NCBI GenBank assembly: GCA_024508935.1
Contig: JANINW010000011.1
Coordinates: 167,571 to 231,570 of the forward strand
Direction of reading: 5' to 3'
Source: Flavipsychrobacter sp.
GTDB taxonomy: Bacteria > Bacteroidota > Bacteroidia > Chitinophagales > Chitinophagaceae
Length of the DNA: 64,000 bases
A model generated the notes under the pieces. It saw only the letters and a program-made list of their open reading frames with translations. It was not told where the DNA came from and did no database searches. The translations under genes were made by a program, and so were the position numbers. This document shows, in pieces, positions 4,258 to 47,332 of this stretch; within the stretch, counting starts at the first letter, position 1; the number at the start of each line of letters is the position of its first letter.

Positions 4258-4455
4258 CTAAGCATTTATACCAGTAGATTTCTTCTTTTTGGCTGAAGTA
4301 CGGAAAAATATGCAACACAATACCAGAAGGGGTAAAATAAAGCGATTGGCAGAAGAAACCTCTCCTGTGAAAGAATATACCTGAGACCATACATACATTG
4401 GAGAAACCAGCAGTGTGATAACAAGTAAGAGCATGTCGGTAGCGCGTGTTTTCAT
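4258..4455 (-). CDS. Small membrane protein: N-terminal signal-like helix, short ectodomain, C-terminal TM and KKKK tail
   Basis: 65 aa ORF; ATG at 4455; promoter-like CATCTTTG (4488-4495, minus sense) and phased GTTAA repeats upstream. Confidence 0.55.
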   Translation of the reverse strand: MKTRATDMLLLVITLLVSPMYVWSQVYSFTGEVSSANRFILPLLVLCCIFFRTSAKKKKSTGINA

Positions 4456-4487: not shown

Positions 4488-4581
4488 CAAAGATGAATTT
4501 GCAAAACAGCCTGGCAAAAAAAATAGTTAACGTTAACGCTGCGTTTTAAATTAGTTAACTACTGTTTTGAAAACGATTAAC
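4488..4581 (-). promoter_or_regulatory. Candidate promoter plus phased GTTAA operator array of the 65-aa gene
   Basis: Minus-sense TTTG-N19-CATCTTTG; GTTAA (plus TTAAC) at 4533, 4555 and 4577, i.e. 22 bp + 22 bp, with an extra copy at 4527. Confidence 0.6.
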
Positions 4582-4605
4582 CACCGCTTAAGAAATGCCA
4601 GCTGT

Positions 4606-5016
4606 TTAGATAAACAGGGGCTCTTTATCCTCTGTTTCTGTTACAGGGTTTGTTTTCGATAAGATGTACAGGATGCAATAGGGTAGCGGGCTTCCGGCGA
4701 AAAGGCGTATAGTGCTTATGTTGTCCAACACCACAGTCGGTAACGGTTGTACTATATTCAATAACCCTGTGGCCAATACGGCAGCTCCACAAACAGCGTA
4801 AATCATCAACCAGGTATTACGCATCCATGCAGGGCGCCTGTTTTTCCATCCCCAGTAGCCGGTAATAGCAATAATGGCTAAAATGGTTATATGCCCTGCC
4901 TGCCGTTCTATAGGTGCCAGTTCCTGTGCATAGCCTTCAGTGAAAAACTGGTAGTCCATACAGCATAACGCCGTAATGAACAGCAGCGGCAATAGTGCAG
5001 ATCTAGTTTTTTGCAT
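4606..5016 (-). CDS. Small integral membrane protein associated with exosortase
   Basis: Start MQKTRSALLPLLFITALCCMD at 5016 overlaps the exosortase stop (5003-5005) by 14 nt; about 4 TM segments. Confidence 0.7.
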   Translation of the reverse strand: MQKTRSALLPLLFITALCCMDYQFFTEGYAQELAPIERQAGHITILAIIAITGYWGWKNRRPAWMRNTWLMIYAVCGAAVLATGLLNIVQPLPTVVLDNISTIRLFAGSPLPYCILYILSKTNPVTETEDKEPLFI

Positions 5017-5548
5017 GGTGATTATTTTTTCGGGTATACAAGATCCATCCTCCGAAAACAAAACCGTACACAACCAGCTTGAAAGCATAATGATGCGCAA
5101 AGTCTGTCAGCGGATGGTTGTTATGATACATATAGGCCAGCAATGCGCAACGCAGCACATTCAGGAGATATATTATTACTGTTCCTGGTAAAGCATATGC
5201 AATCAGCTTACCAATTCTTGCAGGGAAACATAGCAGGAAGCCCAGGTACAAAACTATCAGCTCCAGCCCGTTACATTGCGGCGCAATATTGATGCTGCGG
5301 ATGCCATCTATATATATACCGTTGGTCTCGTAGCTAATTGTATTGCCAAGCTGGGCCAGCAAATAGCCCGTGCCGTGTTGTACAGCGTAGGTAAGTTGGG
5401 TGTCAGGTATTCCCAGTGGCTTTAAGATAAGCAGGTATAGCAGGTTCCAGCCCCCAACAAGCAGGATAGCGCGAAACAGGAATATGCGCGCTTTCGCGGG
5501 CATATTCCTTGTCAGTCGGCGAAATGATTTAGGTGTGGCTATGTGCAT
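5003..5548 (-). CDS. Exosortase/archaeosortase family transpeptidase (XrtX-like?)
   Basis: Multi-TM; Cys in NIAPQCNGLELIVLYLGFLLCFP, Arg in LLNVLRCALLAYMYHNN, His in DFAHHYAFKLVVYG, i.e. the C-R-H triad pattern. Confidence 0.85.
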   Translation of the reverse strand: MHIATPKSFRRLTRNMPAKARIFLFRAILLVGGWNLLYLLILKPLGIPDTQLTYAVQHGTGYLLAQLGNTISYETNGIYIDGIRSINIAPQCNGLELIVLYLGFLLCFPARIGKLIAYALPGTVIIYLLNVLRCALLAYMYHNNHPLTDFAHHYAFKLVVYGFVFGGWILYTRKNNHHAKN

Positions 5549-5558
5549 GGCTGAAGAT

Positions 5559-5855
5559 TTAAGCCTGTTTAGCAGTTTTTTTCCTCATCAGCCTTTTAGC
5601 TCCAATACCCGCGCCGGCAGCTATTAGCAAGCTTAAACCACCATCAAGGGGTACGTCACAGTCATGGTCATGGCTTCCCCAGCTGCTACCGAACTGGCTG
5701 CTGGTGCCACCGGTGCCCGAAGTGCCTGTGCCGGTACTACTGCTGCCGGTAATGCTGTACGGGGTATAACTGTAAGGTTGGGGTGTTTGCGCGTTAGCAA
5801 TAAATGAAAGACTGGTAAATGCTGCTAACATCAGCAAGTTGGCGTGTTTTTTCAT
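5559..5855 (-). CDS. Small secreted PID-CTERM-like sorting-signal protein (exosortase substrate)
   Basis: MKKHANLLMLAAFTSLSFIANAQ signal peptide, Ser/Thr/Gly-rich centre, C-terminal DVPLDGGLSLLIAAGAGIGAKRLMRKK tripartite sorting signal. Confidence 0.85.
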   Translation of the reverse strand: MKKHANLLMLAAFTSLSFIANAQTPQPYSYTPYSITGSSSTGTGTSGTGGTSSQFGSSWGSHDHDCDVPLDGGLSLLIAAGAGIGAKRLMRKKTAKQA

Positions 5856-5878
5856 GGTAGTTTTTTGTTTTTGAAGCA

Positions 5879-5951
5879 CAAATATGCACCACGCATTTCA
5901 ACTATGCCCAATTCCCCGCTTGGTTTAACGAAGCGTTTGTATGTGCTTAAC
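5879..5951 (-). promoter_or_regulatory. Candidate promoter plus 22-bp-phased direct repeat upstream of the PID-CTERM-like gene
   Basis: Minus sense GCTTGGTTAAGCACATACAAACGCTTCGTTAAACC: GCTT(G/C)GTTAA twice, period 22 bp; CATATTTG at 5879-5886. Confidence 0.6.
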
Positions 5952-5966
5952 CAAGCGATAAGAAAT

Positions 5967-5995
5967 AAAAAAAGCCGCAATTTATATGCGGCTTT
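5967..5995 (-). terminator. Rho-independent terminator of the cysteine desulfurase gene
   Basis: Minus sense AAAGCCGCATATAAATTGCGGCTTTTTTTATT. Confidence 0.75.
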
Positions 5996-7772: not shown

Positions 7773-9215
7773 TTATTTGGTACCCTTCTTGAATTTATAC
7801 AGGCAGAACATTTCATATTCAAATATGGTTGGCTCCTGGGTATAGTAAATTAGATCAAGTTGTTGTGCAAGTTCCTGTTTTATAGGGCGGTTAAAGAGTA
7901 TAAGTACATTGTCCAGTTGGCCGCTGAATTTGTCGTGGATCGTTTTAATGTAATATTCGTCGGGTAAAGCCCAGGTCTTTTTCAGGTAAAAAGAATCATT
8001 GACATAGTGTGTGCGGAACTGTCCGAATTCGGGATAGAACATTTTTTTGTCTTTGTCCAGGTAAGGGAGGATGGTACAGGCATAAGCAGCAGGATAGCCT
8101 GTAAGTATATATCCCTGCATGTTGCGGCTCTTAATAAAGTCAGCTACATTTCTTGAATCTGAATAATCACGTTCCACATCCATCATATATTTGGTCCCGG
8201 TGTATTGCAGTTGCAGCACCACTATACCTGCCAGTATCCATATGCCATATTTTATAAGCTGGGGCCATTTTGTTTTTATATTCCAGGGGTCATCATTATA
8301 GAAACCCGCTAGGGCATAACCAACATATATTACGGTAAGTAATAGCCCGCAATGCCTTACGCCGCCAATAAATTTATATCCTAAGATATACAGGATACCG
8401 GCTAATCCCCCCAATACCATTAGCAAAGACTTGGTACGCGTTGCCAACGGTATTAAAAGTGCAATAAGGAGAATGGTGCCCAGGTCTGTATCCATATTCA
8501 GCAGCAGGCCAAAGCTTACCGTCAGGAACATTTCCTTGGAATGGTCTATCAGTTCGGCATCAAAAATATTGGCAGAGTCGCGCATCACGATGTATGGGAT
8601 GAGGTACAAGCCAAAGGCACACATGATGGTGAAAGCGGCTATCACCTTGCCCTGCAGTTTTTTATATTGTAAAGCATCGAGCAGGTAAATACCGGTAAGC
8701 GATGCCGCAAAGGCAAACATCAGCATATGAGTATTAAATAGCCCCGCTACACACAGTGCAAACAGTATAGGTTTATCAAAACGCTTTGGGTATAGCGCTA
8801 TTATGGCACTGGTCAAACAAACAATAGTGCAGTAGCTGCGTGCAAAAACCGAGTATTCATACAAAAAGAAATAGTTAAAAGGTATCAGCACTTTCAATAT
8901 CCAGGGCGCATTGCTGCGGAATAGCAATAAATACATACCTGCCATTACCAAAGCTGCTGATATCCAGTTTTGAATCATATAAGGCAGTCCCATTTTTACA
9001 AAAGGGAATATAGTGAGGTACCACAATGGGGGGTGACCTTCAGCCGGCAGGCCTTTGAACAATACTGCAAGACTATTGTCCCGTACCATTAGGTAAGACT
9101 GGGCTTCATCTCTCCAGGGCTCGTGAACCGTAACGCCGTACGCTACTAAAATGGCATATAGCCCGAACACAACCCATAACGTTTTTTCCTGCCAGGTGAG
9201 TTTGCTGAAGTTCAT
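7773..9215 (-). CDS. GT-C-like multi-TM glycosyltransferase-type protein (tandem paralog 3)
   Basis: HEPWRDEAQSYLMVRDNS and LPAEGHPPLWYLTIFPF motifs; about 10 TM; paralogous to the next two genes. Confidence 0.75.
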   Translation of the reverse strand: MNFSKLTWQEKTLWVVFGLYAILVAYGVTVHEPWRDEAQSYLMVRDNSLAVLFKGLPAEGHPPLWYLTIFPFVKMGLPYMIQNWISAALVMAGMYLLLFRSNAPWILKVLIPFNYFFLYEYSVFARSYCTIVCLTSAIIALYPKRFDKPILFALCVAGLFNTHMLMFAFAASLTGIYLLDALQYKKLQGKVIAAFTIMCAFGLYLIPYIVMRDSANIFDAELIDHSKEMFLTVSFGLLLNMDTDLGTILLIALLIPLATRTKSLLMVLGGLAGILYILGYKFIGGVRHCGLLLTVIYVGYALAGFYNDDPWNIKTKWPQLIKYGIWILAGIVVLQLQYTGTKYMMDVERDYSDSRNVADFIKSRNMQGYILTGYPAAYACTILPYLDKDKKMFYPEFGQFRTHYVNDSFYLKKTWALPDEYYIKTIHDKFSGQLDNVLILFNRPIKQELAQQLDLIYYTQEPTIFEYEMFCLYKFKKGTK

Positions 9216-9231
9216 AAGGTAAATGAATGGA

Positions 9232-10674
9232 TTATTTTACGTTCGGTTTATATTTGTAAATATAAAAAGCCTCTTCCCAGTGCAGTACAGGTTCTTCTGT
9301 TTTATAAATAAGGTCCAGGTATTTTTCTGATTGAGGCTGTACCGGATAGTTGAGTAACAATACAACTTTGCTCAAGTCCTTAAAATTATCGTGCGATACT
9401 TTTACCGCATAATCTACCGGGTAGGCCCATATTTCCTTCATAAAGCAGGAGTCATAAACATAGAAGCTCCCGTAACGCTGACATTCAGCGTAGTAGAATT
9501 TACTGCCTTTGGGCATGTAAGGCAGAACTGACAATACGCTGGTGGCTTCGTAGCCTACAATAGTCTCCTGTTTATCTTTTCGGTTCATCAGGAATTCGGC
9601 AGCGTCCTTAGCGTCACTGTTCAGCGTGGTGATGTCGTCGCTGTATTTCTTCAGGGTAGCGGGAAGTTGTACAACCACTGCTGCGCACAGTCCCCATATT
9701 CCAAACTTTGCAAGGTCTTGCTGTATGCTCTTTAAGCCATTCAGCGCATCATCTTTATAATAGATTGCAATGCCATAGGCACCGAAAAAAATAATAAATA
9801 GCACTCCGTGATGGCGTATTGTAGTCGCGTATCTGAACGAGATAATATAGAGTGCGCCGGCAAGCCCCATGACCAGGAGCATAAGCGGTTTGGTTCTTTG
9901 AGCCAATAATATGATCAGCGCTATGAACAATAAAAGAAACACAGGATTGCCCGTAAGACTGATCCCATTTGTAATTGCTGTTTTAGCCAGGCCGGCATGG
10001 TCTGTTATTTTGGTTTGGTAAAAACGTACCATGCTGCTCATAAACAGGTAGGGAATAAGGTAAAGTCCGCCTATACACATAAGAACGAAACTGCCCAGCA
10101 CGCTACTATTAAGCTTTTTTTGCTGCATGCCATCCCATAAAAACAGCATCATAATGCCGAATGCAAATGTGAATACGAGTACATGCGAATTGTATAAACC
10201 GACTACACATAGCGCAAATAACCAGGGCTTTTCAAAACGCTTTTCGTAGAGTGCTATTATTGCAGTGATAAAGAATACGTAGAAGCAATAGTTACGGCCC
10301 ACAATAGCATATTCATAGAAGAAGAAATAGCTGAATGGCAGTGCCAGTTTCAGTAAAGGGTTCACCTTTGTTTTGAAAAGCAGCAGGTATACAGCAGCTA
10401 TCATTACGCTGCCTGATATAAAATCAAGTATGTGGTGTGGAGCACCTGCCTGGGCAAAAGGATAGAGTATGAGATACCATAGCGGCGGGTGCCCTTCAGC
10501 GGGCAGTGTTTTGAATATACCGGCAATAGTGTTGTCGCGGGCTATAAGCCATGCCTGCGCCTCATCTCCCCATGGCTCATGGTTAATGACGCCAAACAGT
10601 ACCGCAAGATTATAGAGCGCAAAAACGATCCAATAAACATTCCTGTTTTTTTCTTCGTTCAGGATGGCAGTCAT
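9232..10674 (-). CDS. GT-C-like multi-TM glycosyltransferase-type protein (tandem paralog 2)
   Basis: HEPWGDEAQAWLIARDNT, LPAEGHPPLWYLILYPF. Confidence 0.75.
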   Translation of the reverse strand: MTAILNEEKNRNVYWIVFALYNLAVLFGVINHEPWGDEAQAWLIARDNTIAGIFKTLPAEGHPPLWYLILYPFAQAGAPHHILDFISGSVMIAAVYLLLFKTKVNPLLKLALPFSYFFFYEYAIVGRNYCFYVFFITAIIALYEKRFEKPWLFALCVVGLYNSHVLVFTFAFGIMMLFLWDGMQQKKLNSSVLGSFVLMCIGGLYLIPYLFMSSMVRFYQTKITDHAGLAKTAITNGISLTGNPVFLLLFIALIILLAQRTKPLMLLVMGLAGALYIISFRYATTIRHHGVLFIIFFGAYGIAIYYKDDALNGLKSIQQDLAKFGIWGLCAAVVVQLPATLKKYSDDITTLNSDAKDAAEFLMNRKDKQETIVGYEATSVLSVLPYMPKGSKFYYAECQRYGSFYVYDSCFMKEIWAYPVDYAVKVSHDNFKDLSKVVLLLNYPVQPQSEKYLDLIYKTEEPVLHWEEAFYIYKYKPNVK

Positions 10675-10679
10675 AGTAT

Positions 10680-12200
10680 TTAATGTGAAGGATTTTTGAA
10701 TGTATAGATAAAATAGATCTCGTCCTGCTTAATAGGCTGTTCCTGTGTACTATAAAGCAGGTCCATACGGTTTGCCCACACAGGCGATAATGGACTATTG
10801 AAAACGAATAATAACTTATCGGTTTTGCTTTTAAAGTTATTATAGGCAATATCCACATAGCTGTCGGCCGTATTACCCCAGTTGCCTTTGGTAAAACAGG
10901 TATCGAAAACGTAGTAGGACCCGAAACGCTGGCATTCTACATAGTAGAGCTCTTTATGGTCTTGCAGGTAGGGGAGTAAAGCACTGGTAGCCCATGCTGA
11001 TTGCCCGACTATAATATTATTTTCAAGATGGTGTTCTTTAATATAAGATGCCGCGTTTTGTGAGTCTGAATAGATTTGTTCATTATCCAGCAGGTAATTT
11101 TCGATGGCCGGCTTTATCTGTAATACAGCCATCAGGGCAAAAAGCAGGTAACTATATTTTGCTATAATGAATTTCCCGGCAGGTATTATGTTCCAGCTAT
11201 CCTCTTGGTAGAAATCGTAAAGCCCATAAACACCTGCGATGATGATGAACGCTACACCGCCATGTCTTATATCGCCAGGGAAGATATACCCTATAATATA
11301 TACTACGGCTGCAAGTCCACCTGTCAAAAGGAGGAAGGGCTTTGTACGGGTTGCTAAAGTGATACACATCAGCCCAAGCAGTATTATGGCCAGGTCTCCA
11401 TTATTGCCCGCCAGCAAACCCAGCGCCAGCGTGCGTTTGATAATGCCGAAATGGTCTTGCAGGTAAGGGTGGAATGCGCCTGTTACTTTACTGGAACCCA
11501 TATAAGGTATCAGGTATAGTCCCCCAATTACCATAAATGCGAATGCCGCTATTATGGATGTATTTATCTTCTTCTGCTGCACGGCATCCAACAGGTATAT
11601 ACAGGCCAGCGTAAAGCAAAAGGAAAAAATGAGCATATGCGTATTGAACATAGCGACAACACAAAGTGCAAATAGCCAGGGCTTTTCAAAGCGCTGCGGG
11701 TAAAGCGTTAAAATGGCACTCATCAAAAATACCAGTACACAGTAGCTACGGCCCACTAACGCATATTCAAAAAGGAATAGATAGGTGAAAGGCAGTATTA
11801 GTTTTAGGAGTATCGGCAGCTTCGAGCGAAAGAGCAGCAGGTAAATGCCCGCTATCATAAAGGCAGCCGATAAGATATTTTGTATCACATAGGGTGCACC
11901 GAGCTTGGCAAAAGGAAACAGTATAAGGTACCAGGTGGGCGGGTGCCCTTCTGAAGGTAGTTTTTTGAACAACCCTGCCAGATCCAGGTTCTTAACCACC
12001 AGCCATGATTGAGCCTCGTCGCGCCATGGCTCGTGGTTGGTCATGCCATAAATAACCAGTAAGGCATAGAGAATAAATACCGGCCACAAAAGTTTTGGCA
12101 GCCAGTTGCCAATAGGGGGCTTTGTGGTTGCCGGAGGCGTAGCAGGAGAAGGTTTTGGTTTTAGCGGTTGAGGATTTTGCCTGGGGTGTTTTTTTGCCAT
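10680..12200 (-). CDS. GT-C-like multi-TM glycosyltransferase-type protein (tandem paralog 1)
   Basis: HEPWRDEAQSWLVVKNLD, LPSEGHPPTWYLILFPF; Pro/Lys-rich cytoplasmic N-terminus. Confidence 0.75.
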   Translation of the reverse strand: MAKKHPRQNPQPLKPKPSPATPPATTKPPIGNWLPKLLWPVFILYALLVIYGMTNHEPWRDEAQSWLVVKNLDLAGLFKKLPSEGHPPTWYLILFPFAKLGAPYVIQNILSAAFMIAGIYLLLFRSKLPILLKLILPFTYLFLFEYALVGRSYCVLVFLMSAILTLYPQRFEKPWLFALCVVAMFNTHMLIFSFCFTLACIYLLDAVQQKKINTSIIAAFAFMVIGGLYLIPYMGSSKVTGAFHPYLQDHFGIIKRTLALGLLAGNNGDLAIILLGLMCITLATRTKPFLLLTGGLAAVVYIIGYIFPGDIRHGGVAFIIIAGVYGLYDFYQEDSWNIIPAGKFIIAKYSYLLFALMAVLQIKPAIENYLLDNEQIYSDSQNAASYIKEHHLENNIIVGQSAWATSALLPYLQDHKELYYVECQRFGSYYVFDTCFTKGNWGNTADSYVDIAYNNFKSKTDKLLFVFNSPLSPVWANRMDLLYSTQEQPIKQDEIYFIYTFKNPSH

Positions 12201-46657: not shown

Positions 46658-47332
46658 ATGCCCGAAAAAATTAAGGTCTATCATCTTGAGGATTATAAAA
46701 TTATGCGCGAAGGCGTAAAGTTTTTGTTGTCGAAAGATGACGAAATAGAAATGGTAGGTGGCTCTAAGACTGCAGATGAAGTATATAGTTACCTCGATAA
46801 AAATAAAGTAGATGTACTGATACTGGACATATACCTCGATGGCCTGGATGTAAAGACAGTAGATGGTTTTGAGGTTTGCTCTACCGTGCATAAAAAATAC
46901 CCCGATGTAAAAGTAATAGCCCACTCAGTATACGATGATGCCGACCGTGTAGCAAGAATCATGAATGCAGGTGCGGTGGGGTTTGTGTCAAAAAAATCAG
47001 GGTATGAAGAACTTGTACATGCGATAAAAGTTGCATATACCGGAAAGAAGTATATTTGTATCGAGACCTCTAAAAAACTTAAAAACCTGAATGAGTTCCT
47101 GGAGGGAATGGTGGATACACTCCGTTCTGAAAATGAGTTTTTCTCTAACCGGGAAAAGGAAGTTTTGGAGCTGCTGGCTAAAGGTTATTCATCAAAAGAT
47201 ATAGCTAAAGAGTTGTTTATAACAGAACGCACCGTAGAAACGCACCGTAAGAATATGGTTGAGAAAGCAAAAGTGAAGAACACGGTTGAATTAGTAGCTT
47301 ATGCTTCCTCCCGGGGCTTTATAAAGTCTTAA
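46658..47332 (+). CDS. NarL/LuxR-family response regulator
   Basis: KVYHLEDYKIMREGVKFLL, VLILDIYLDG, HTH NREKEVLELLAKGYSSKDIAKELFITERTVETHRKNM. Confidence 0.92.
   Translation: MPEKIKVYHLEDYKIMREGVKFLLSKDDEIEMVGGSKTADEVYSYLDKNKVDVLILDIYLDGLDVKTVDGFEVCSTVHKKYPDVKVIAHSVYDDADRVARIMNAGAVGFVSKKSGYEELVHAIKVAYTGKKYICIETSKKLKNLNEFLEGMVDTLRSENEFFSNREKEVLELLAKGYSSKDIAKELFITERTVETHRKNMVEKAKVKNTVELVAYASSRGFIKS

Follow-up and report, generated by a model that had tools for sequence, protein, structure and literature searches.

What controls an exosortase cassette in a member of the Bacteroidota? The stretch of DNA analysed here (64,000 nt of the Flavipsychrobacter sp. genome; hereafter, the window) carries a gene for an XrtX-family exosortase adjoining a gene for a PID-CTERM protein, which has a signal peptide and a C-terminal sorting signal (Table 1). 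The latter passes the cut-off of NF046080; for the exosortase X-like protease, NF046081 is the best model, with a score of 125.8 bits that lies under its cut-off of 170, and TIGR04178 is over its own cut-off of 23. The exosortase gene and the gene for a 136-aa membrane protein sit between the PID-CTERM gene and a gene coding for a 65-aa small membrane protein; in relatives, a protein of like size occupies the place of the 136-aa protein, after XrtX, and a search for family matches to the 65-aa protein returned none. A terminator-like hairpin would isolate the PID promoter from the upstream cysteine desulfurase gene, and Rfam gave no family at gathering score, its single weak match (RF01859) overlapping this hairpin. 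Gene content and family searches bear out the view, put forward in a preliminary description of the locus, that the cassette is without a regulator gene. Elsewhere in the window, three tandem paralogous membrane proteins of 480-506 aa (7773-12200, minus strand) look glycosyltransferase-like by eye, and a LuxR/GerE-type DNA-binding domain (about 47141-47305, plus strand) is the genome's best GerE match.

Table 1. Features of the exosortase cassette and of its two promoters (window coordinates).
Feature	Position	Strand	Remarks
65-aa small membrane protein	4258..4455	-	signal-peptide-like N-terminus, KKKK tail
CATCTTTG, -7-like box of 65-aa gene	4488..4495	-	+64 of array
TTTG, -33 element of 65-aa gene	4515..4518	-	19-nt spacer to -7 box
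Extra GTTAAC copy	4526..4531	-	6 bp from last unit of 65-aa-gene array
65-aa-gene array, about six 11-bp units	4533..4594	-	GTTAA at 4581, 4559, 4537
136-aa membrane protein	4606..5016	-	
Exosortase X-like protease, 181 aa	5003..5548	-	NF046081 125.8 bits (under cut-off), TIGR04178 50.7 bits, PF09721
PID-CTERM protein, 98 aa	5559..5855	-	NF046080 37.8 bits, cut-off 26
CATATTTG, -7-like box of PID-CTERM promoter	5879..5886	-	+65 of array
TTGG, weak -33-like element	5908..5911	-	21 nt upstream of PID-CTERM -7 box
PID-CTERM array, four 11-bp units	5925..5964	-	CTTATCGCTTG / GTTAAGCACAT / ACAAACGCTTC / GTTAA
Intrinsic-terminator-like hairpin	5971..5995	-	between upstream cysteine desulfurase gene and PID promoter

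The preliminary description had drawn attention to short direct repeats upstream of the two outer genes. The positions it gave for plus-strand TTAAC (4527, 4533, 4555 and 4577; 5925 and 5947) are all correct, recomputation returned the same 27/43 identity between segments 4554-4596 and 5924-5966, and the nearest repeat does lie 37 or 38 nt from the -7-like boxes; counted from the pair's first GTTAA, these boxes stand at +64 and +65. Upstream of the PID-CTERM gene, GTTAA is read on the minus strand at 5951 and 5929. The 22-bp spacing is also right, but that 22 bp represents two 11-bp units had been missed, and with it the array of about six such units preceding the 65-aa gene.

The doubt that the phased repeats might occur at background frequency is answered by the genome as a whole, where the pattern is far above chance: GTTAA-N17-GTTAA is found 46 times in 3.76 Mb versus 18 times for the reversed pattern, and AnnTTTG lies exactly at +64/+65 in 19 of the 46 matches, with 0.13 expected. 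The 46 were picked without regard to the promoter box; they are not fully independent, some lying before paralogous genes, and a formal P value overstates their independence. Their alignment revealed a longer common element, from which profiles could be built. The three best matches in the 64 kb of the window to a sequence-only profile made from 19 sites of the same genome, all outside the window, are at 4553-4593, 5878-5955 and 4488-4550. A second profile, from 50 sites of the genus and its relatives with the window left out, recovered the same places (5878-5955, E 8.6e-9; 4553-4593, E 6.4e-7; 4488-4550, E 4.6e-5), the next match in the 64 kb having an E value of 0.33. Likewise, with a matrix made without the window, the window sites score 25.3, 23.8 and 20.1, against 4.3 for the runner-up within the 64 kb, the top score in 4 Mb of simulated sequence being 14.7. 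The source genome as a whole holds 43 matches at E<=1, 30 of them at E<0.004.

The per-position profile resolves the element into four tandem 11-bp units, TTGTTAA-N4-TTGTTAA-N4-TTG(C/T)AAA-N4-nnGTTAA, a layout of 7-bp motifs and 4-bp spacers with all units on the same strand. Among 98 non-redundant promoters (<70% identity), GTTAA-like units occur at -11 (67), 0 (88), +11 (67) and +22 (96), the +11 unit usually being GCAAA or GTAAA, and the -7 box is at +64 in 39 and at +65 in 38 (AnnTTTG at either position in 77/98). The -7 box of Bacteroidota sigma-A promoters is TAnnTTTG (PMC9723704); here, the base preceding AnnTTTG is often C instead of T, both window boxes included. The canonical array ends 37 or 38 bp before the sigma-A -7 box, thus covering about -88 to -49 with a poor -33 element downstream of it, and the 37 and 38 nt of the window promoters are exactly the two modes across the genus. 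Longer arrays are present at some loci (L097, L144 and L145), some with 6-8 units; over all promoters, the 11-bp period past four units reaches no more than a marginal P of 0.046. We also rejected a palindrome, GTTAACC...GGTTAAC, since the bases preceding the second GTTAA are not conserved.

Conservation across loci, another point on which the preliminary description could have failed, speaks for the element: the array is kept upstream of the PID-CTERM genes of relatives, and genome-wide. Genomes of the same genus mostly have 20-29 sites, the low counts being 7 in G001 (84% complete), 1 in G003 and 9-10 in G013, and the other 26 sampled genera yielded none except for a single weak match in G024. 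In a scan of the family (299 genomes, 104 genera) with stricter filters and no more than 14 candidates scored in each genome, so that its counts are lower bounds, six of the 104 genera (g1, g38, g51, g60, g67 and g97) have at least 12-14 matches in nearly every genome; g80, a weak carrier, has two per genome, g43 and g44 one each, and about 95 of the 104 genera have no match. UBA7674, which appears to be another genus, has the array before a PID-CTERM gene, and an XrtX that is 50% identical. The regulon thus delineated by sequence would be common to several related genera.

Within this larger regulon, the cassette accounts for a minority of the targets, and the idea of a regulator dedicated to it is not supported. 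The array precedes the PID-CTERM gene in 12/17 exosortase loci searched, and at least one locus (L131) has more than one PID-CTERM gene with a preceding array; of the 132 unique sites, however, 57 lie before genes for a family of proteins of about 180 aa and 10 before PID-CTERM genes, a share inflated by the deliberate fetching of exosortase loci. The remaining sites lie before other genes (33), are without an ORF of at least 45 aa within 330 nt (22), or are cut off (10). Two XrtX genes in G003 are both without arrays, which we read as a natural loss. G013 combines strong sites with the lack of a close XrtX, so the exosortase is not the core of the regulon. Further targets are usher-like outer-membrane proteins of 917-924 aa, T9SS-tailed and signal-peptide proteins, a SIR2-like protein kept in two species, and membrane proteins of 51-65 aa.

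The secreted family of about 180 aa has no clear match in Pfam, NCBIfam or PDB. Its members share the motif QTVNLxLSNAIELTFTGSGTATG...GxYTVDVVYTATQ and there are many paralogs per genome (for example, L012:1207-1752, L018:3145-3684, L020:3641-4189 and L026:2051-2605, and 19 in L369-L388); the strand pattern at the C-terminus recalls that of pilin-like proteins. Near the 180-aa genes are usher-like outer-membrane proteins of 913-920 aa (L011:5195-7957, L032:5568-8309 and L378:1440-4193), for which no clear family or PDB match was found, and a chaperone-like protein (L032:1034-1840), a neighbourhood that suggests an undescribed fibre-assembly system. Small membrane proteins of 51-65 aa with basic tails are encoded directly 3' of arrays (L012:278 region, L111, L376, L388 and window 4258-4455), and the pairing recurs in several genera. 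Arrays without a clear downstream ORF (L023, L043, L377:8983, L382:11277 and L388:4345), some of them syntenic between species, possibly mark unannotated small genes or RNAs. In addition, contigs C3, C6, C13, C23 and C95 of the source genome (loci L010, L012, L019, L026 and L033) end within near-identical promoters of the array class; the array repeats probably break the assembly, so that copy number is underestimated.

Common architecture, fixed register and conservation together give good sequence support to the earlier proposal that one regulator would co-control both window genes, though its scope had been underestimated. We regard it as very likely that the arrays are bound by a transcription activator that controls a surface and secreted-protein regulon. 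By analogy, and tentatively, a tandem binder of the OmpR/PhoB type is the most likely occupant. The units at -11, 0, +11 and +22 have the tandem layout of OmpR/PhoB-type sites, and the 7+4-bp head-to-tail direct repeats resemble those of Mycobacterium tuberculosis PhoP, which has 7-bp motifs with a 4-bp spacer, extends to tetramers and binds three or four repeats cooperatively, although the unit sequence differs here (PMC4832192). Trans_reg_C matches number 6-8 per genome in five members of the genus, and four OmpR-type orthogroups are common to all five and present outside the clade too. The single clade-restricted OmpR-type orthogroup among those examined (L233), confined to the genus and absent from two motif-poor genomes, was discarded as a candidate, being also missing in the motif-rich G002, G008-G011 and G014. 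The array was sought at 36 OmpR-type and 44 LytTR loci of five genomes and found at none, so that there is no clue from autoregulation.

Another head-to-tail binder, either NarL-type dimers in 22-bp tandem or a BldC-like protein of the MerR type, is a possible but less probable occupant. NarL-type regulators are encoded in all five genomes, but their sites are typically inverted repeats. BldC occupies direct repeats head to tail and in variable number, as the putative regulator would, which would suit the arrays with 6-8 units; its units, however, are of 9 bp with an AT-rich consensus, versus 11 bp here (PMC5859096).

The preliminary description favoured an AgrA-like LytTR activator bound to two repeats spaced by 22 bp, which we consider unlikely, slightly more so than the preceding alternative. 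The pair itself and its AgrA-like position stand: the spacing of about 21-22 bp between direct repeats in AgrA-like sites is present here, with a GTTAA core at 0 and +22, two turns apart and upstream of the promoter, and the centre of the pair is near -62 as compared with about -60 reported for AgrA (PMC4227749). Moreover, LytTR repeats are usually separated by 11-13 bp, known sites can diverge from the consensus (PMC6193735), and each of the five genus members examined has 6-14 LytTR genes. Against the assignment, which is unsupported as to identity, a two-repeat model does not account for the conserved units that recur every 11 bp, both between the pair and before it, and three genera that lack the regulon have more LytTR genes (21-29); nor is the array present at any of the LytTR loci mentioned above. 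The LytTR repeat consensus is [TA][AC][CA]GTTN[AG][TG]; it fits 0/101 sites at unit 0 and 1/92 at unit +22, the flanking bases contradicting it in all but one of the 193 GTT-bearing units at these positions.

Activation does not follow from position by itself; the array could instead be the operator of a repressor. This seems rather improbable, as the array is wholly upstream of the core promoter, in fixed helical register, and adjoins weak -33 elements, an arrangement that we would expect of activators. Finally, it is hardly credible that the motif has no regulatory role and arose as 180-aa genes were recently duplicated along with their promoters: many sites do lie before near-identical paralogs, and some contigs of the source genome end within near-identical copies, but the units and the box register are kept in the 98 promoters of <70% identity, unrelated genes (PID-CTERM/XrtX, usher-like, SIR2-like and small membrane proteins) carry the array, and it is conserved across genera.

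Returning to an activator that binds in tandem, the four 11-bp units would lie head to tail on one face of the helix, the subunits of the regulator would bind them cooperatively in the same orientation, and the bound protein would bring RNA polymerase to a weak sigma-A promoter. Many genes for the secreted proteins of about 180 aa would then be switched on jointly with the 65-aa gene and the PID-CTERM/exosortase X operon. What the sequences show directly is the array and the fixed register it keeps to the -7 box, how far it is conserved and which genes it precedes; we infer activation over repression, the tandem binder and the existence of an inducing signal. The element would be a promoter switch common to roughly 25-40 promoters in the source bacterium, and its regulator probably switches on the cassette and, with it, a poorly known secreted-protein family.

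The nearest precedent is found in another phylum. In Proteobacteria, PEP-CTERM genes have a common upstream DNA motif associated with PrsK/PrsR, and the same paper states that more DNA motifs are still to be found (Haft 2006, PMC1569441). As in the PEP-CTERM/PrsR case, a common upstream motif ties exosortase-system genes to one, here putative, regulator. The promoter logic is different, however: the PEP-CTERM promoters have sigma-54 -24/-12 elements and an NtrC-type regulator, whereas in these Bacteroidota the promoters show no -24(GG)/-12(GC) element but an AnnTTTG sigma-A -7 box at fixed spacing from tandem 11-bp repeats. The targets are also broader, most of them not being PID-CTERM genes. 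A search of the open-access literature found nothing relevant on the regulation of PID-CTERM genes or on an 11-bp repeat system in Bacteroidetes, and exosortase-system regulation beyond Proteobacteria appears almost unexplored.

A wider reading, possible although we advance it as speculation, is that of a clade-specific surface-remodelling regulon in a Chitinophagaceae-like group, in which one regulator binding head-to-tail arrays controls exosortase X/PID-CTERM, the proteins of about 180 aa (possibly fibre-forming) with their usher-like partners, and tiny membrane proteins, the number of units (4 to 8) tuning promoter strength. In any event, a conserved cis-element defined by sequence allows about 25-40 co-regulated promoters to be predicted in each genome and links an exosortase cassette to an uncharacterised family of secreted proteins. 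DNA pull-down should lead directly to the regulator, and co-expression makes it possible to test what the PID-CTERM system does.
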